Assembly (NCBI RefSeq): GCF_001403635.1
Contig: NZ_LN879467.1
Coordinates: 1-64,000 of the forward strand
Length of the DNA: 64,000 nucleotides
Source: Clostridium massiliamazoniense
GTDB taxonomy: Bacteria; Bacillota; Clostridia; Clostridiales; Clostridiaceae
Direction of reading: 5' to 3'
The translations under genes were made by a program, and so were the position numbers. Of this stretch, positions 173 to 59,835 are shown piece after piece. The stretch's first letter is position 1. The number at the start of each line of letters is the position of its first letter. A model generated the notes under the pieces. The model saw only the letters and a list, made by a program, of their open reading frames with translations. It was not told the DNA's origin and made no database searches.

Positions 173-853
173 ATGGGAAGTAAAGAAACACTTATAGAAG
201 TCTGTAAAAAATATAATATAAGTAGTACAGACAAGATAATAGTAACAGCTTGGAATCAAATGGCTTCCTTTAGGGTGGCTGCAATACTTCTTTACATAGG
301 AGTAAAAGATGTACGAGTTTTAAATGGGGGACTTTCTTATTATAGCGCTTTAGATTTTCCACTTTCTACAGAAAAGACAAATGTAATGCATAATAATAAT
401 ATTAATATAGGCATATTCAACCCAAAAGGAATGATTGTATCTACTAATAAACTAAAAAGATTGTTAAAAAGAAAGAACTTTACTTTAGTTGATAACAGGA
501 CTTGGCTTGAGCATATAGGAAAAGTTTCTGGCTATAGTTATCATAAGAAAAGAGCGAGAATTCCAGGAGCTGTTTATGGGTATGCAGGATATTCTGGGTC
601 ACAAAGTTTAGATTATTATAGAAATGTGGATGGAACGATGAAGAGCAAGGCTTCAATTAAAGCTTTATGGAAGCAAAGTAATATAAAAATGACAAATAAT
701 CTTGCATTTATGTGTGGAAGTGGTTGGCGTGCTTCAGAAGTTTATTTCTATGCCAAGGTATTTGGTTATAAAAATATTTCTGTATATAGTGATGGTTTTA
801 TAACATGGAGTAAGGATCCAAGTAATCCTACTGTTACAGGAATACCTAAATAA
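173..853 (+). pseudogene. 5'-truncated rhodanese (sulfurtransferase) remnant
   Basis: The 226-residue open frame carries most of a tandem rhodanese. The end of an inactive first domain (residues 20-60, ending VLNGGLSYY) is followed by a second domain with the active-site loop CGSGWRAS (Cys181). Rhodanese-type enzymes move sulfane sulfur from thiosulfate or mercaptopyruvate to an acceptor. About 70 residues of the first domain and any signal peptide are missing. The ATG has no convincing ribosome site. In the next frame just upstream (153-176) the sequence reads IDRRIGQW, which would continue into GSKETL if the GGG run at 175-177 had one more G. That frame is closed by a TAA at 123-125. I read it as a gene that lost its 5' end and also carries a homopolymer shift. 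Family is clear from the loop; activity is doubtful. Confidence 0.7.
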
Positions 854-854
854 A

Positions 855-889
855 ATAAAGGTGCTGATTTGATACAGCACCTTTATTTA
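855..889. terminator. Rho-independent terminator, GGTGCTG family
   Basis: The stem AAAGGTGCTG / CAGCACCTTT (857-866 with 875-884) encloses ATTTGATA and is followed by T-rich sequence. It lies 2 bp after the rhodanese stop. Near-copies occur at 46948-46978 and, with a broken stem, at 39113-39140. Confidence 0.8.
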
Positions 890-913
890 CATTACTTTTA
901 TTATCGGACGAGA

Positions 914-1106
914 TAGCTATATAGGTACAAAATGCTGTGACCATTGAACTAGTACTAGAAGCTCTTTATTTTTGAACAATAGTTTCGTAAAAAAATTTCC
1001 ATTGTTTGAACAAAGTGAGTTTGGAAATTTTAGAAACTATTGTAGAAAAAATATTAGAGCTTCTTTACGTAAGTGAGTGGTCACAAATGATGAACCTATA
1101 TAGCTA
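914..1106. repeat. R1 long palindromic repeat, copy A
   Basis: A 193-bp imperfect palindrome. The outer inverted ends are TAGCTATATAGGT (914-926) and ACCTATATAGCTA (1094-1106). Inside are nested arms: GTGACCATTGAACTAG... with ...GTGAGTGGTCAC, then CAATAGTTTC with GAAACTATTG, then AAATTTCCA with TGGAAATTT, around a loop containing TTGTTTGAACAA. The whole element could fold into one hairpin of nearly 200 nt. No frame is open across it. A near-identical copy in the opposite orientation lies at 38886-39079 and a half copy at 22329-22395. It is flanked by two terminator types that recur with it. Looks like a non-autonomous mobile element or a structured RNA. Confidence 0.85.
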
Positions 1107-1115
1107 GATAAAAGG

Positions 1116-1156
1116 CAAAGAGAATGTATCAAATTACAGATACATCCTCTTATTAT
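1116..1156. terminator. Bidirectional terminator, GAGGATGTATC family
   Basis: The stem AAGAGAATGTATC / GATACATCCTCTT (1118-1130 with 1139-1151) lies just past the end of the minus-strand MFS gene. The same hairpin family recurs at 22405, 38848, 46901 and 51134. Confidence 0.8.
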
Positions 1157-3197: not shown

Positions 3198-4160
3198 TTG
3201 ATTGAAATTAAGGACTTAACAAAAAGCTTTGGTGATGGAGAGGTCATCAAAGGGATTAATTTGAATATAAAGGAGGGAGAAATATATGGTCTTATAGGTC
3301 AAAGCGGGGCAGGAAAGTCAACTTTACTCAGGTGTATAAATGGTCTTGAAAGTTATGACAAAGGTTCTCTAAGAGTTATGAGAAGAGAAATTAGTGAACT
3401 TAATGAAAAAGAACTTAGAACATTTAGAAAAAGTTTGGGAATGATTTTTCAAGGCTTTAATCTTTTGAATAGAAAAACTGTTTTTCAAAATATAGCACTT
3501 CCTATGGAGGTTTGGGGTTACTCAAAGGAAGCTATTAACAAGAAAGTTAAAGAGCTTATAAAACTTGTAGGTCTTGAAGGAAGAGAAAATGCAAAACCTA
3601 GAGAGCTTAGTGGAGGTCAGAAGCAAAGAGTAGCTATTGCAAGAGCTTTATCTTTAGAGCCCAAAATATTATTATCAGATGAAGCAACTTCAGCTTTAGA
3701 TCCAAAAATAACAAAGGATATATTAGAACTTTTATTAAAAATAAATAAAGAACTAAATATAACAATTGTTGTTGTTACTCATCAAATGGAAGTAGTGAAG
3801 GAAATCTGTGAAAAGGTGGCACTCATAGAAAACGGAGTTATAGTAGCTGAAGGAGAAGTAGAAGAGTTATTTTTAAGTCAAGGGAGAGAGCTTAAGAGAT
3901 TTTTAGGAAATAATGAAGAATTGCTTCCTAAAGACGGTATAAATATAAGAATATTTTTTCCTAGTGACTCTTCAGAAAATGCCTTAATAACTAAAATGGC
4001 TAGAGAATTAAATGTTGATTTTTCAATAGTATGGGGCAAGCTTGAAAAATTTAAAAGTGGAGTATTAGGAAGTTTAGTTATAAATATAAATAAGGAAGAT
4101 GAAAATAAAATAATTAAATATTTGAAAAGTAAAGAAATTAGGTGGGAGGTAATTGAATAA
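3198..4160 (+). CDS. metN: Methionine ABC transporter ATP-binding protein MetN
   Basis: A 320-residue ATPase that powers methionine uptake through MetI. Walker A is GQSGAGKST (about 34-42), the signature is LSGGQKQR (about 139), and Walker B is ILLSDEATSALD. Residues of about 245-320 form the C-terminal NIL domain that senses methionine in MetN homologues. The start is TTG at 3198, preceded by a GGGGGGA ribosome site. The stop overlaps the metI start (TAATG), so the two are translationally coupled. The SAM riboswitch directly upstream confirms the substrate class. Confidence 0.95.
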   Translation: MIEIKDLTKSFGDGEVIKGINLNIKEGEIYGLIGQSGAGKSTLLRCINGLESYDKGSLRVMRREISELNEKELRTFRKSLGMIFQGFNLLNRKTVFQNIALPMEVWGYSKEAINKKVKELIKLVGLEGRENAKPRELSGGQKQRVAIARALSLEPKILLSDEATSALDPKITKDILELLLKINKELNITIVVVTHQMEVVKEICEKVALIENGVIVAEGEVEELFLSQGRELKRFLGNNEELLPKDGINIRIFFPSDSSENALITKMARELNVDFSIVWGKLEKFKSGVLGSLVININKEDENKIIKYLKSKEIRWEVIE

Positions 4161-11873: not shown

Positions 11874-11948
11874 TTATTTAGAGTTATATGTTTGTTTACC
11901 TTAGACTTATAGAAGGGAGGAGTATTACAGCCTCTAGTTATGAGATAA
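11874..11948. repeat. R2 repeat, internally deleted copy
   Basis: A 75-bp copy of the R2 family, reading TTATTTAG at one end and AGCCTCTAGTTATGAGATAA at the other, with GGAGTATTACAGCCTCTAG matching the inverted sequence at 59702-59720. Confidence 0.65.
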
Positions 11949-11949
11949 A

Positions 11950-11998
11950 AAAGAAGTACTTCAAAGAAGAAGAAAATCTACTTTGAAGTACTCTTATT
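11950..11998. terminator. Terminator of the fru operon
   Basis: AGTACTTCAAAG (11955-11966) pairs perfectly with CTTTGAAGTACT (11981-11992). It lies directly after the minus-strand fruA stop and may also serve the MATE gene. Confidence 0.85.
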
Positions 11999-17534: not shown

Positions 17535-18017
17535 ATGAATTTTGAAGAATTTTTTAATTTCTATGCTGGAAATTTTATTAATAATAATAGAACTAATACA
17601 GATAATAGTGATAATAGTTATGACGGTGTAGGGGGATTTGGATGTAATGATATGCCAGGAGGATTTCAAGATTTAGACCCTAATTTTTTTGTAACACTAA
17701 GTTCCTTAGTTGGTCTTATATCAGCTCAAAATTTACCTTTTAACCTTCAAAATGCAATAGGAAATTGGTTTGAATTACTCGGTCAAGTTATGTTGACTTA
17801 TAATGCTCAACAACAATATTTTCAAAATGGTCCAGGGCATTATTATGATGTTAGAAATAAAAACATAGGTAATGCTACTTGTCCAAGCACTTCAGGGCAA
17901 TCAAGTACCTCTGGGCAATCAAGTACTTCAAATACTTGCAATTGTGAGAAGGAAATAGAAAAGTTAAAAAAAGAAATAAAAAGGTTATCTGAGAAAATAG
18001 ATAGGCTACAAAAATAA
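17535..18017 (+). CDS. Hypothetical protein, tandem paralogue 1
   Basis: 160 residues, family not recognised. The core GGFQDLDPNFFVTLSSLVGLISAQNLPFNLQNAIGNWFELLGQVMLTYNAQQQYFQNGPGHYYDVRNKNIGN-like block (about 41-112) is strongly shared with the next gene. The N-terminus is Asn-rich and variable; after the core comes a short Ser-Thr-Gly-Gln repeat (STSGQS twice, residues about 117-128), then CNC and a C-terminal coiled coil (CEKEIEKLKKEIKRLSEKIDRL). No signal peptide or membrane span. The architecture suggests a self-assembling structural or oligomeric protein, but this is inference only. Confidence 0.7.
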   Translation: MNFEEFFNFYAGNFINNNRTNTDNSDNSYDGVGGFGCNDMPGGFQDLDPNFFVTLSSLVGLISAQNLPFNLQNAIGNWFELLGQVMLTYNAQQQYFQNGPGHYYDVRNKNIGNATCPSTSGQSSTSGQSSTSNTCNCEKEIEKLKKEIKRLSEKIDRLQK

Positions 18018-18114: not shown

Positions 18115-18543
18115 ATGAGTTTTGAAGAATTTTTCAATACCTATTGTGGTAATTCTAATATTGACTTTAATGGTTTTGGATGTGAAGATATACCAAATGG
18201 ATTTCAGGATTTAGACCCTAATATGTTTATAACATTAGCAACCTTAGTAGCTAATATATCTGCAAGAGATCTTCCATTTAATCTTCAATATGCTATAGGA
18301 AACTGGTTACAAGTAGTAGGTCAAGCTATGGTAGCTTATAATGCTCAACAGCAGTACTTTCAAAATGGACCAGGACTTTATTATGATATTAGAAATAAGA
18401 ACATAGGCAATGATTCGTGTAAAAGTTCATCTGAGTCAACAGTAAAAAATGATTGTAATTATCAGCAGGAGTTAGTTGAACTTAAGGAACATATAAAAAT
18501 ATTATATAAGGAAATAAGTAGGCTTAAAAAAGAGAATGATTAA
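18115..18543 (+). CDS. Hypothetical protein, tandem paralogue 2
   Basis: 142 residues, paralogue of the gene 98 bp upstream. It starts with the same SFEEFF, keeps the core (GFQDLDPNMFITLATLV, LPFNLQYAIGNWLQVVGQ, YNAQQQYFQNGPG, RNKNIGN) and also ends in a coiled coil (QQELVELKEHIKILYKEISRLKK). It lacks the Asn-rich insert and the STSGQS repeat. The conserved block is far more similar than either end, indicating purifying selection on a shared interaction or fold. GTGAGGAT upstream may serve as ribosome site. Function unknown. Confidence 0.7.
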   Translation: MSFEEFFNTYCGNSNIDFNGFGCEDIPNGFQDLDPNMFITLATLVANISARDLPFNLQYAIGNWLQVVGQAMVAYNAQQQYFQNGPGLYYDIRNKNIGNDSCKSSSESTVKNDCNYQQELVELKEHIKILYKEISRLKKEND

Positions 18544-22254: not shown

Positions 22255-22328
22255 GACTAAATACCTCCCATTGCATATTATATTTATGGTTTACAAAATA
22301 TAATTGTTCAATACCTTATATTCTTAGA

Positions 22329-22395
22329 TTGTAGAAAAAATATTAGAGTTTCTTTACGTAGGTGAGTGGTCACAAATGATGAATCGATATAGCTA
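22329..22395. repeat. R1 palindromic repeat, right half only (copy B)
   Basis: About 67 bp matching the right arm of copy A (TGTAGAAAAAATATTAGAG, then GTGAGTGGTCACAAATGATG and a terminal ATCGATATAGCTA). The left arm is absent, so it cannot form the hairpin. The adjoining GAGGATGTATC terminator is kept. Confidence 0.8.
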
Positions 22396-22402
22396 GATAA
22401 AA

Positions 22403-22444
22403 GGAAAAGAGGATGTATCTGTAATTTGATACATCCTCTTTTCT
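22403..22444. terminator. Bidirectional terminator, GAGGATGTATC family
   Basis: AAAAGAGGATGTATC / GATACATCCTCTTTT (22405-22442), serving the minus-strand transglutaminase gene. Confidence 0.85.
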
Positions 22445-37792: not shown

Positions 37793-38650
37793 ATGGAAAA
37801 AATTGCGATAGTTACAGATAGTACTTGTGGAGTACCTGAAGAATTTGTTAAAGAGTATAATATAAAAGTCTTAAGACTTAAGATAATTTATAAAGACAAA
37901 GAATATTTAGATGGATTGGATATAACACCAAAAGAGGTTTATGAAAGAATGGATGAAGAAATGCCTACAACATCTACTCCATCAGTTCAACAAAGTAATG
38001 AAATCATAGAAGAGCTTATAGAAGAGGGATATACACATGTAATAGGATTATTCATTTCTTCAGGATTATCAGGAACAATGAATAGTTTTAGAATTGCAGT
38101 AGAAAATTATGAGGATAAAATAAAGTCATATGTTTTTGATACTAAAATGATATCTATGGCAGTTGGCTGGTGTGTAATGGATGCTGCTAGATTAGTTAAA
38201 GCAGGAAAGAACTTTGATTATATTTGTAATGAGATACCAGGAATGAAGGAAAGAATAACTCTTTGTTTTAGTGTAGATACTTTAGAATACTTAATAAAAG
38301 GTGGAAGAATAGGAAAAGTAGCTGGTACTATAGGTCAAATTCTTAACTTAAAACCTATAATAAATATGGATGAAGAAGGAAAATATACAACTTGTGCAAA
38401 GGCTAGAGGTTCAAAACAAGCTTTAAATAAGATGATTGCAATTGGAGAAGAAGCTTTAAATAAGGGAAAAAGTAGAGTTGTAGTAATGACTGGTACAATG
38501 GATGAAGAACTTGTTAAATTAAAGGAAGTTTTTGAGAAAAATCCAAATGTAACTGAGGTAACTACTGGAGCATTTACTCCTGTAATAGGTGTTCACTCAG
38601 GTCCAAGAATAATTGCTCTTGGGGTAATGGAAGAAAAAGAATATAATTAA
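37793..38650 (+). CDS. DegV family fatty-acid-binding protein
   Basis: About 285 residues. IAIVTDSTCGVPEEF at the N-terminus, TSTPSVQQ, SSGLSGTMNSFRIA (about 88-101) and the C-terminal VIGVHSGPRIIALG are the family marks; members bind a fatty acid in the cleft and, as FakB, present it to the kinase FakA. No fakA is nearby. GGAGGA at 37783-37788 supports the ATG at 37793. A 56-codon membrane gene follows 20 bp later and may be co-transcribed. Confidence 0.92.
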   Translation: MEKIAIVTDSTCGVPEEFVKEYNIKVLRLKIIYKDKEYLDGLDITPKEVYERMDEEMPTTSTPSVQQSNEIIEELIEEGYTHVIGLFISSGLSGTMNSFRIAVENYEDKIKSYVFDTKMISMAVGWCVMDAARLVKAGKNFDYICNEIPGMKERITLCFSVDTLEYLIKGGRIGKVAGTIGQILNLKPIINMDEEGKYTTCAKARGSKQALNKMIAIGEEALNKGKSRVVVMTGTMDEELVKLKEVFEKNPNVTEVTTGAFTPVIGVHSGPRIIALGVMEEKEYN

Positions 38651-38670
38651 TGGAAAAATGGGGGAATTAA

Positions 38671-38841
38671 ATGAATTTAGATGGTGGGAAAATTGCTAAG
38701 TATACTTTATTAGGTGTTGGAGCTTATGTTGTTTTAAATATCGCTTTTAGGGTATTTAACATAGTTTTTAATATTGCATTTAAAGCTCTGGTTATTGTAG
38801 CAATTATAGCGTTTATAAGTTACTTAATGAGGAAAAATTAA
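38671..38841 (+). CDS. Small membrane protein (56 residues)
   Basis: A short frame MNLDGGKIAKYTLLGVGAYV... ending YLMRKN. Residues about 11-50 form one long or two short hydrophobic helices with basic residues at each end. AATGGGGGAATTAA gives a strong ribosome site, the gene is 20 bp behind degV, and a terminator follows 6 bp after the stop. The context argues that it is real. Function unknown. Confidence 0.7.
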   Translation: MNLDGGKIAKYTLLGVGAYVVLNIAFRVFNIVFNIAFKALVIVAIIAFISYLMRKN

Positions 38842-38845
38842 TAAG

Positions 38846-38878
38846 TTGAGGATGTATCATAGATACATCCTCTCTGTC
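38846..38878 (+). terminator. Terminator of degV operon, GAGGATGTATC family
   Basis: GAGGATGTATC / GATACATCCTC (38848-38872) with a three-base loop, abutting R1 copy C. Confidence 0.85.
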
Positions 38879-38885
38879 TTTTATT

Positions 38886-39079
38886 TAGCTATATAGGTAC
38901 ATCATTTGTGACCACTTACTTACGTAAAGAAGTTCTAATATTTTTTCTACAACAGTTTCTAAAATTTCAAAATTCACTTTGTTCAAATAATGGAAATTTT
39001 TTCATGGAACTATTGTTTAAAAATAAAGAGCTTCTAGTATACTAGTTCAATGACCACCGTATTTTCTACCTATATAGCT
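38886..39079. repeat. R1 long palindromic repeat, copy C (inverted)
   Basis: A 194-bp element with terminal inverted repeats TAGCTATATAGGT and ACCTATATAGCT. Its reverse complement aligns with copy A (914-1106) over the whole length at roughly 90 percent identity by eye, with matching ends and matching nested arms. As with copy A, a GAGGATGTATC terminator lies on one side and a GGTGCTGATTTGATACAG hairpin on the other. Confidence 0.85.
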
Positions 39080-39111
39080 CTCGCAGCAGATGAAAAAATA
39101 CATTTATAATT

Positions 39112-39190
39112 AAGGTGCTGATTTGATACAGACCCTTTTTATGTTATGAAAAGGTGCTAGATTTAATTGATTAAACTAGCACCTAAATTT
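39112..39190 (-). terminator. Terminator of the secreted-protein gene, plus a decayed GGTGCTG hairpin
   Basis: AGGTGCTAGATTTA / TAAACTAGCACCT (39152-39184) is a perfect hairpin past the minus-strand stop at 39199. Next to it (39113-39140) is AAGGTGCTGATTTGATACAG followed by ACCC, a family copy whose stem is broken. Confidence 0.75.
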
Positions 39191-39198
39191 AAGATTAA

Positions 39199-40005
39199 TT
39201 ATTTATGATTAGGAATGTATACATAACCACTTAATGAAACATAGATTTCTTCGTAGTTAGTTCCAGGTACCTTTGGAATATTAGTTGTGTTGTAATTTTG
39301 AGTAGCACCTGTTATAGTTCCATCTTGTTCGTTTACTTTTGGTTTGATAGTTATAAGATAGCAAGTATGGCCATCAATAACTTTTGTTTGTGATAAATCA
39401 GCAGATAAATTAAAGTTAACATATGCATTGTTAGGTTCAATTGGTGCATTACCAACTACATATTCAGCTGCATTTTTTAATAGCTCATTTTGTTTCTCAC
39501 TAGTAGTTAAGTTTTTAGAAACATGTAATTGAGCTCCTTGAGGCATTGTTGTTAACATTTTACCTGTTGTACTAACAAAGAAAACACCTCTTAAACCACT
39601 ATAATTTCCATGTGAATCAGCAAGTTGGCCTGTCCAGTTTTGGAAGTAGTCATAAACCTTGTAATATCTAACTCCATTATAGTCAAAATATTGTGATAAG
39701 TTTGTTGTTATGAAATCACCTACATTTGAAACTTTGTCTGTTGCTGATTGGATAGCATTATATAACATAGTTTCATCATAACTGAATTGATTTTGTGTGT
39801 CATACATAGCGATTTCACCTGGTGTTAAGCTATTAGGGTTATTTTTTATTAAAGCTTGTTCAGCAGGGGTTTCCTGTTGATTACTTAGTGTAACTCCTTG
39901 TGGTAATGAAGAGCTAGAGTTTCCTTTATCAGTAGCATAAGCAACACCGCCTCCAACACATACACAGCATAGTGCAATTATAACTCCTATAACGACCTTT
40001 TTCAT
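39199..40005 (-). CDS. Secreted protein of unknown function
   Basis: 268 residues. Signal peptide about 1-25 (VVIGVIIALCCVCVGGGVAYA) with an AYA-type cleavage site. The mature part has a Ser-rich linker and a Tyr/Asn-rich globular region (YFDYNGVRYYKVYDYFQNW, GLRGVFFVSTTGKM) with repeated strands ending VIDGHTCYLITIKP and EEIYVSLSGYVYI. No family recognised; the C-terminal strands recall small cystatin-like or PepSY folds, which is weak inference. Ribosome site AGGAGGAAC. Single gene. Confidence 0.7.
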   Translation of the reverse strand: MKKVVIGVIIALCCVCVGGGVAYATDKGNSSSSLPQGVTLSNQQETPAEQALIKNNPNSLTPGEIAMYDTQNQFSYDETMLYNAIQSATDKVSNVGDFITTNLSQYFDYNGVRYYKVYDYFQNWTGQLADSHGNYSGLRGVFFVSTTGKMLTTMPQGAQLHVSKNLTTSEKQNELLKNAAEYVVGNAPIEPNNAYVNFNLSADLSQTKVIDGHTCYLITIKPKVNEQDGTITGATQNYNTTNIPKVPGTNYEEIYVSLSGYVYIPNHK

Positions 40006-41622: not shown

Positions 41623-41663
41623 TGAATATATAATATAGAGAATTTATTGATAGTAATATAGTA

Positions 41664-41698
41664 GGTTGGAGTACTACAGCCTCTAGCTATCAGATAAA
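41664..41698. repeat. R2 repeat fragment
   Basis: GGAGTACTACAGCCTCTAG followed by CTATCAGATAA matches one end of the R2 family (inverted sequence at 59693-59722). It lies 28 bp before the next gene. Confidence 0.6.
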
Positions 41699-41725
41699 AA
41701 TTTGATTTTAGAAAGGTGTTAATCT

Positions 41726-46897: not shown

Positions 46898-46978
46898 AAA
46901 AAAGAGGATGTATCGAATTACAGATACATCCTCTTTAGTAATATAAAAAGTGCTGACTTGATACAGCACCTTTTTTTA
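46898..46978. terminator. Two adjacent terminators without R1 insertion
   Basis: AAAGAGGATGTATC / GATACATCCTCTTT (46901-46936) is followed 13 bp later by AAGTGCTG...CAGCACCTT (46948-46971). The same two hairpins flank R1 copies A and C, but here nothing lies between them. The first serves dedA, the second the minus-strand gene ending at 46976. The first hairpin and its loop are identical over 37 nt to 51134-51170. Confidence 0.85.
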
Positions 46979-58873: not shown

Positions 58874-59707
58874 ATGTTAAATATAGGATGTCATTTATCA
58901 ACAACAAAGGGGTTTGAAAATATGGGGAAAGAGGCAATTTCTATAAATGGAAATACATTTCAATTTTTTACTCGTAATCCAAGAGGGGGCAAAGCAAAAG
59001 CTATAGTACAAAAAGATATAGATGCTTTAAAGGAATTAATGGAAAAAAATAATTTTGCAAAATTATTAGCACATGCACCATATACTTTAAATGCTTGTTC
59101 TGCTGATGAAAATACAAGAAACTTTGCTAAAGAGATGATGATGGATGATTTAGTAAGAATGGAGTATTTACCTAATAATTTATATAATTTTCATCCAGGA
59201 AGTCATGTTAAACAAGGAGTGGATGTTGGAATAGAATATATTGTTCAAATGCTTAATGAAGTAATTAAACCAGAACAAACAACAACAATTCTTTTAGAAA
59301 CTATGGCTGGAAAAGGAACAGAAGTAGGAAGAACTTTTGAAGAAATAGCAGAAATAATAAGTAAGGTAGAACTAAAAGATCATATGGGAGTATGTTTAGA
59401 TACTTGTCATGTTTATGATGCTGGTTATGATATAGTTAATGATTTAGATGGTGTATTAGAAGAGTTTGATAGAGTAATAGGTTTAGAGAGATTAAAGGCT
59501 ATACATTTAAATGACAGCAAAAATCCTTATAAAAGTCATAAGGATAGACATGAGAAGATTGGAGAAGGTTATATAGGAATAGAAGCTATAACTAGAATAA
59601 TAAATCATCCTAAGTTAAAAGGAATTCCATTTTTCTTAGAAACACCAAATGAACTTGATGGATATGCTAAAGAAATTGAGTTATTAAAAAGTTTATCTGA
59701 TAGCTAG
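58874..59707 (+). CDS. nfo: Endonuclease IV (AP endonuclease)
   Basis: 277 residues, TIM-barrel with a trinuclear zinc site. Motifs: [10 protein letters not shown] (first His), [28 protein letters not shown] (His), [13 protein letters not shown] (Glu), [15 protein letters not shown] (Asp, His), [25 protein letters not shown] and FFLETPNE. It cuts DNA 5' to abasic sites. Ribosome site TGGAGGAT. The last codons and stop (TTA TCT GAT AGC TAG) are the terminal sequence of an R2 repeat, so the C-terminal SLSDS is repeat-derived. Confidence 0.96.
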
Positions 59708-59835
59708 AGGCTGTAATACTCCTATCTTTTATAGGAAACTCGACTCGCATTGCTCGCTGAGTAAGTTCCTATAACTAAATCAAGATTTAGATAGTCACTT
59801 AAGTAGGAGATAAACAGCCTCACGCTTCTAGATAA
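59693..59835. repeat. R2 repeat, longest copy
   Basis: A 143-bp imperfect palindrome. The ends are TTATCTGATAGCTAGAGG and, inverted, TTATCTAGAAGCGTGAGG. The next arms are CTGTAATACTCCTATC and its partner GTAGGAGATAAACAG. The centre is a hairpin TATAGGAAACTCGACTCGC / GCTCGCTGAGTAAGTTCCTATA. The local GC content is above its surroundings. Shorter relatives lie at 11874-11948, 35801-35865 and 41664-41698, with an end fragment at 33865. No coding capacity. Confidence 0.8.

Follow-up and report, generated by a model that had tools for sequence, protein, structure and literature searches.

The window, a 64,000-nt stretch at the start of contig NZ_LN879467.1 of Clostridium massiliamazoniense, carries a repeat, here called R1, that has no gene and folds as a single long hairpin; it is present in two complete copies and one half copy (table 1). 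Copy A lies between convergent genes, a rhodanese-domain gene (173-853, + strand) and an MFS gene (1157-2338, - strand), and copy C is likewise flanked by convergent ORFs. The initial annotation had described copies A and C as inverted copies matching along their whole length, which the alignments bear out: positions 953-1130 show 92% complementarity to 38862-39039 (178 nt), and the outer part (896-954 against 39040-39098) is 80% complementary over 59 nt. The ends that it regarded as shared need a small correction, the terminal inverted repeat TAGCTATATAGGT/ACCTATATAGCTA being perfect in copy A but differing in copy C in the outermost base of one end. The half copy that it placed at 22329-22395 is real, but the repeated stretch reaches further right, since positions 22328-22419 are 93% identical to 1039-1130 and span the adjoining terminator hairpin as well. 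The length of R1 is ∼194 bp in the window and ∼228-270 bp in relatives. No target-site duplication could be named from the window copies by themselves, and ARAGORN found no tRNA in the window.

Table 1. R1 copies, their parts and the terminator-like hairpins of the window
Feature	Position	Strand	Evidence
T1 terminator-like hairpin after rhodanese-domain gene, left of copy A	853..888	+	Terminator scan, repeat D4
R1 copy A, complete long hairpin	914..1106	+	Fold of 900-1120, repeat with copy C, BLAST homologs (query 896-1116)
Left terminal inverted repeat TAGCTATATAGGT	914..926	+	Sequence
Conserved inner part of copy A (covariance-model region), motifs TTTAT../..AATATTA, apical TGTTTGAACAAAGTGAGTTTGG	942..1076	+	Alignment A1, pair counts, match of 114.1 bits
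Right terminal inverted repeat ACCTATATAGCTA	1094..1106	+	Sequence
T2 terminator-like hairpin after MFS gene, right of copy A	1118..1151	-	Terminator scan, repeat D2
R1 half copy, right arm only	22328..22395	+	Direct repeat D3, 93%
T2-type terminator-like hairpin adjoining half copy	22404..22443	-	Terminator scan, repeat D2, inverted repeat I4
T2-type terminator-like hairpin adjoining copy C	38848..38872	+	Terminator scan, repeat D7, inverted repeat I2
R1 copy C, complete, inverted	38886..39079	-	Inverted repeats I1 and I3, covariance-model match of 92.6 bits
T1-type repeat adjoining copy C, imperfect stem, uncalled by terminator scan of 38600-39300	39105..39138		Repeat D4
T2 and T1 hairpins between convergent genes, no R1 between	46901..46973		Terminator scan, repeats D2, D4, D5, D9

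The predicted fold of positions 900-1120 has an energy of -74.9 kcal/mol compared with -36.9 ± 3.6 kcal/mol for shuffled sequences (z -10.5), and none of 200 shuffles equaled it. Because the loops of the smaller T1 and T2 hairpins are inconsistently oriented relative to R1, we take these hairpins to be host terminators, and R1 would then be a lodger beside or between them. Promoter-like sites beside copies A and C were no commoner than in shuffles.

Elsewhere in the window, a SAM riboswitch (RF00162, 2937-3054, 80.7 bits) precedes a gene (3198-4160) for which the top NCBIfam match, MetN, falls below its cut-off. Two neighboring ORFs (17535-18017 and 18115-18543) that share a 254-nt direct repeat (78%) and have no Pfam match are probably a tandem gene duplication. 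Another repeat, of 42-47 bp, occurs near the ends of ORFs at three places, in the same orientation at two and inverted at the third (11908-11951, 41657-41703, and 59687-59733). Among the best 80 loci listed, the closest to the glycerol-3-phosphate oxidase-like protein of the window was that of Sarcina ventriculi (74%).

R1 also occurs in other clostridia, with many copies in some genomes, which counters the possibility, raised in the initial annotation against its own reading, that the window copies are the only ones. A BLAST search of 206 Clostridiaceae genomes with window positions 896-1116 (E ≤ 0.001) gave matches in 32 genomes, many of them short, with the best (E 4.6e-19) in genome G102 and long matches also in G100, G101, and G154. 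At E ≤ 1e-4, with 40 candidates scored per genome, there were 17 matches in G102, 24 in G100, 37 in G101, and 9 in G154. From an alignment (A1) of 47 diverse sequences, a covariance model was built for the 137 positions of the inner part; both window copies, scoring 114.1 bits (A) and 92.6 bits (C), are among the sequences that built it. Using this model, whose E-values are rough by the tool's own statement, matches were found at E ≤ 0.001 in at least 72 of the 206 Clostridiaceae genomes (up to 16 candidates scored per genome) and, mostly weakly, in at least 18 of 391 genomes sampled across the class Clostridia, both counts being lower bounds because the surveys ran strict filters. G021 has 44 model matches and G057 has 83, partly short forms; many of those listed for G057, a 2.8-Mb genome, are a shorter form covering model positions 26-115 only. 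Near-identical copies are found on separate contigs in G181 and in G021. Three of the 16 genomes reached via named loci matched: Clostridium mobile MSJ-11, with 17 matches, and two MAGs of Clostridium, with 7 and 3; a further six genomes counted alongside these 16 had been picked for their earlier matches. The model had no match in Sarcina ventriculi, C. hydrogeniformans, C. ihumii, C. vincentii, C. gallinarum, or C. senegalense. Exact-pattern scans of genome contigs and viral contigs, and BLAST searches of the copy A region and a G102 composite against plasmids and phages, returned nothing, which excludes exact or near matches only.

The family also appears to be unnamed, as the initial annotation had supposed. 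At gathering score none of 4,227 Rfam families matched R1, the SAM riboswitch being the only match elsewhere in the window, and none was obtained at R1 in 13 loci from relatives; the two tRNAs that Rfam places at locus L240 lie in the flank, outside R1. Below threshold, the best models at R1 were those of miRNA precursors. Literature searches of open-licence papers found none that names the family.

Differences between the window copies had been described as partly compensatory across the arms of the hairpin, and this is upheld once homologs are added. In alignment A1, 19 of 36 pairs have changes on both sides, there are 178 compensated cells compared with 56.6 in shuffles, and 95.9% of cells are paired compared with 86.3%. 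The covariation score is 0.335, against 0.163 in shuffles (0 of 500 equal), a control inflated by relatedness, and against at most 0.099 with the arms slid, a control that retains relatedness but favors a structure derived from the same sequences. In a 227-column palindrome aligned from 60 copies of G100, G101, G102, and G154, Watson-Crick cells number 4,780 where 4,099 are expected from independent arms, and non-Watson-Crick cells 464 where 1,145 are expected. Base changes thus respect the pairing, and to judge from these alignments the R1 fold is selected. Both G-T (148, expected 363) and A-C combinations (105, expected 312) are depleted in the palindrome, which argues that pairing is maintained on both strands, as expected of a DNA hairpin or of an RNA transcribed from both strands. 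Conserved motifs in A1 fall at internal loops and at the apex, and comprise TTTAT opposite AATATTA, and TGTCTGAGCGACAGCGAGTTTAG.

The outer ends of R1 vary between species and are recognizable within species in G100-102, G021, and G122. In G100-102 one side of the hairpin terminates in TAGAAATATTACGAC and the opposite side in GTCGTAATATTTCTA or GTCGTAATATCC, as read from a listing of 73 of the 92 copies, some with incomplete ends. In G122 the end sequences vary among copies yet often agree, by eye, within one copy. Full copies lying close together have a characteristic arrangement, since all 35 such pairs that were read are divergent (minus, plus) around a mostly noncoding core. These include every one of the 23 two-copy loci of G100-102, counting full-length copies only (score >100, >200 model positions), in which the distance between the matched parts is 201-271 bp at 16 loci and 30-173 bp at 6, the remaining locus having 802 bp. 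The same order is seen in 7 of 7 pairs of G181 and G182, where 0.5-1.3 kb separate the inner parts, and in 5 of 5 close pairs among the matches listed for G021. Exceptions in tandem occur in G186 and G462; a stretch of G186 (G186:C1:418422-419029) has three R1 matches in direct tandem ∼235 bp apart. Partial copies show further orders (e.g., at L162, L184, L166, L104, and L144), their orientation being uncertain because the element is nearly palindromic.

The cores enclosed by these pairs contain little coding sequence. ORFs of at least 40 amino acids are present in 4 of the 23 cores of G100-102, one being 116 amino acids long, and in 2 of the 7 cores of G181 and G182, where they are not shared. 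The 116-amino-acid ORF lies on the minus strand inside a G100 composite core (L161, 863-1213), and the flanks of this site are similarly spaced in G102. Short GC hairpins recur in the cores of G100-102 (GACC-GATA-GGTC, GGGC-TGATAA-GCCC, and GGGC-TGCC-GCCC), and in 11 of the 15 cores scanned upstream of the GACC hairpin the best promoter-like site has a -10 box that ends 39-41 nt before this hairpin, with sequences such as TTTACA-N17-TATGAT. Taken singly, the core promoters do not outscore shuffled sequence (a fraction of 0.065 to 0.985 of the shuffles doing as well), and we therefore call them promoter-like only.

A promoter-like site followed by short GC hairpins and by a long hairpin whose end coincides with or lies close to a convergent gene's stop codon would be the layout of a discrete structured RNA gene with its own function, of which R1 would be the 3′ part and whose spread in copies would be secondary. 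The near-fixed place of the promoter-like site, the recurrence of the short hairpins, and the conserved unpaired motifs, including the apical CTGTCTGAGCGACAG..CGAGTTTAG, all speak for such a gene, the first of them weakly because the copies share descent. Against it stand the scores of the single promoters, the promoter-like sites beside window copies A and C, which are as frequent in shuffles, and the lack of an Rfam family at gathering score. In addition, G-T pairs exceed A-C mismatches only mildly, making pairing nearly equal on the two strands. We consider an RNA gene possible, if rather unlikely. A relationship to retron-like units, in which short hairpins, a long stem, and complementary closing ends are reverse transcribed in trans, is suggested by a composite segment before the short hairpins, AATATTTTACGAC, that is complementary by eye to the 3′ end GTCGTAATAT. 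The closing pairing is only partial in predicted folds, however, the window copies have no 5′ part, and no reverse transcriptase was detected with Pfam or NCBIfam among 29 different window proteins, so that we regard this explanation as highly improbable.

R1 is found preferentially between convergent genes, at 55 of 103 distinct sites with a gene on both sides, compared with 28 of 146 background intergenic gaps in the window and in 11 loci belonging to other genomes (Fisher P = 1.8e-8). This count leaves out five sites without a neighbor on one side and six loci (L196-L201) that duplicate sites already counted, and it contains orthologous sites of G100-102 more than once; with the six duplicates included it becomes 58 of 109. 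In the subset from G181 and G182 alone the proportion is 7 of 19, which is not significant (P = 0.056). Among 29 ends with a recognized terminus (63 further ends being unrecognized), 13 have a boundary TAG or TAA that serves as in-frame stop to an ORF of at least 60 codons, compared with 4 of 29 in which such an ORF lies in another frame. Insertion beside stop codons would be tolerated because neither promoters nor reading frames are broken.

The same bias could mean that R1 serves convergent genes as a terminator in both directions or as an insulator, and a double-strand terminator was one of the candidates put forward in the initial annotation. The stop codons at the boundaries are consistent with this, as is site L136, where two relatives carry, by eye, an ordinary terminator-like hairpin instead of R1. 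At copy A, however, R1 lies between terminator-like hairpins belonging to both convergent genes and is not obviously needed there for termination. Intrinsic terminators have a GC-rich stem followed by a T tract. Terminator scans picked out both T1 and T2 beside copy A and only T2 beside copy C, and did not call R1, whose long stem is AT-rich and has no clear T tract after it in the window. A conserved apical motif is also unneeded for termination. We judge termination or insulation an improbable explanation of R1.

Comparison of orthologous sites supports mobility of R1. At L138, both G100 and G101 lack the composite of G102 and have its flanks joined with a 2-bp overlap; at L404, G007 (C. gallinarum) lacks the G021 element and has the flanks joined with a 4-bp overlap. 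Further genomes have both flanks of L404 in one match, and the close relative G051 has a shortened form. A putative target duplication would be 2 bp at L138 and 4 bp at L404, where the flanks are 74-80% identical, and none is consistent at the G021 ends. Of 18 sites placed in both G100 and G102, 6 have R1 in both, 6 have long spacing, 5 are shortened in one genome, and 1 is empty; with a single empty site, movement does not seem to be frequent now.

When nine G102 elements were searched in G100 and G101, one (L138, above) was cleanly empty in both, four (L153, L183, L189, and L167) proved to have shortened forms in G100, two (L158 and L184) had flanks that are widely spaced in G100, judged by spacing only, and two (L117 and L172) had flanks that did not fall together. 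An apparent empty site for L117 in G101 (L142) was not counted, as the stretch between the flanks aligns uncleanly. Of the G100 elements, L127, L132, L149, and L161 correspond to long spacing in G102 (again spacing only) and L148 to a shortened form. Where G101 has L125 and L136, the relatives G100 and G102 carry 28 to 139 bp of different intergenic sequence; of L139 they retain part of an end, and L135 and L154 are shortened. At L405, G075 and G055 carry 46-59 bp of other sequence instead. At orthologous sites of G021, G051, and G071, the insert is often shortened, or is rich in hairpins but quite dissimilar. For example, L450, L452, L453, and L454 of G071 contain hairpin-rich inserts different from those at L403, L412, L405, and L410 of G021, some with similar termini. 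Sites of these two genomes therefore seem to persist while interiors turn over, and the shortened and exchanged inserts suggest that an element, once it has arrived, remains in place while its interior is lost or exchanged.

A pattern representing the ends of the G100-102 elements matched 45 times in the three genomes, compared with 21 matches for a reversed control pattern. No transposon sharing these ends was present in the 30 loci examined, 29 of which read as ends of R1 copies or of shortened forms and 1 as a mini-element. Two loci that had seemed to lack R1 offered no partner either: L350, which starts at the first base of its contig, has R1 at 23-213 with the pattern at 198-211, and L363 has both ends and no interior. 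The TAG and TAA ends in G100-102 had suggested an origin from Tc1/mariner or IS630 elements, with TA duplicated and the stop codon rebuilt; neither the ends in G021 nor the two empty sites call for it, and we do not claim it.

As a class, bacterial MITEs are short, gene-less, intergenic elements with many copies and inverted terminal repeats that are absent from some orthologous sites. R1 resembles them in all of these respects: It has no coding capacity, as initially annotated, and remains under ∼600 bp per unit, although composites exceed the length of one unit; it has terminal inverted repeats; and its many interspersed copies differ in presence and absence, with flanks joined at two sites. 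The interiors of MITEs are usually not conserved across genera. R1 inverts this pattern, its interior fold being conserved across species while its ends differ, and the conserved interior points to a function of the fold itself. Mobility, an RNA product, or transcription termination may be what maintains the fold. R1 is further unlike MITEs in being often paired around a mostly noncoding core, in having no parent transposon with the same ends in our limited search, and in the unequal overlaps, of 2 bp and 4 bp, at its two empty sites.

REP and BIME sequences, which are moved in trans as single-stranded DNA, are extragenic palindromes like R1. They are much smaller, at 20-40 bp (PMC3733652), than the about 190-270 bp of R1. 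Another family that can be compared is bcr1 of the Bacillus cereus group, which occurs in Bacillus anthracis and is listed with 31 copies, 21 of them complete, and a model of 167 bp (147 bp in the literature) in PMC2267715 (Table 3 there). By that description bcr1 is, like R1, an intergenic stem-loop family of Firmicutes of similar size, with a copy number within the range of R1, whereas divergent pairing is unmentioned in the section of PMC2267715 that lists it. The same source describes two clostridial stem-loop families, Clop-1 of C. perfringens (93 bp) and Clot-1 of C. tetani (74 bp). R1 is likewise a clostridial intergenic stem-loop family, set apart from these two at about 190-270 bp by their description in PMC2267715 rather than by sequence.

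On balance, we think it probable that R1 is the local form of a Clostridiaceae family of non-autonomous mobile hairpins, MITE-like and with the fold itself selected. The points behind this reading are the many copies, the compensated pairing, the ends, the convergent bias, the divergent pairs, and the two empty sites. It agrees with the suggestion of the initial annotation of a MITE-like element moved in trans insofar as there are two empty sites and defined ends in G100-102, and departs from it in that our limited search found no partner transposon. Copies of the mobile hairpin would spread via an enzyme supplied in trans that recognizes the folded form, be it cruciform DNA, single-stranded DNA, or RNA. 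An enzyme reading the fold would explain why inner structure is conserved across species with differing outer ends. More tentatively, and with considerable doubt, R1 may belong to a class of clostridial mobile element that encodes no protein and is moved by an unfamiliar enzyme. A core that is mostly noncoding, and perhaps bears a promoter, would lie between two divergent long hairpins, the folded nucleic acid would be the part that is conserved and selected, and insertion sites would outlast the interior and ends, with their fast turnover.

A strongly covarying structured repeat is thus matched in about one-third of the Clostridiaceae genomes searched, with tens of copies in some, below every Rfam threshold and unnamed in the papers searched. 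R1 offers a test system for the survival, spread, and pruning of long palindromes in bacteria, and also for whether hairpins at 3′ ends shape convergent transcription.
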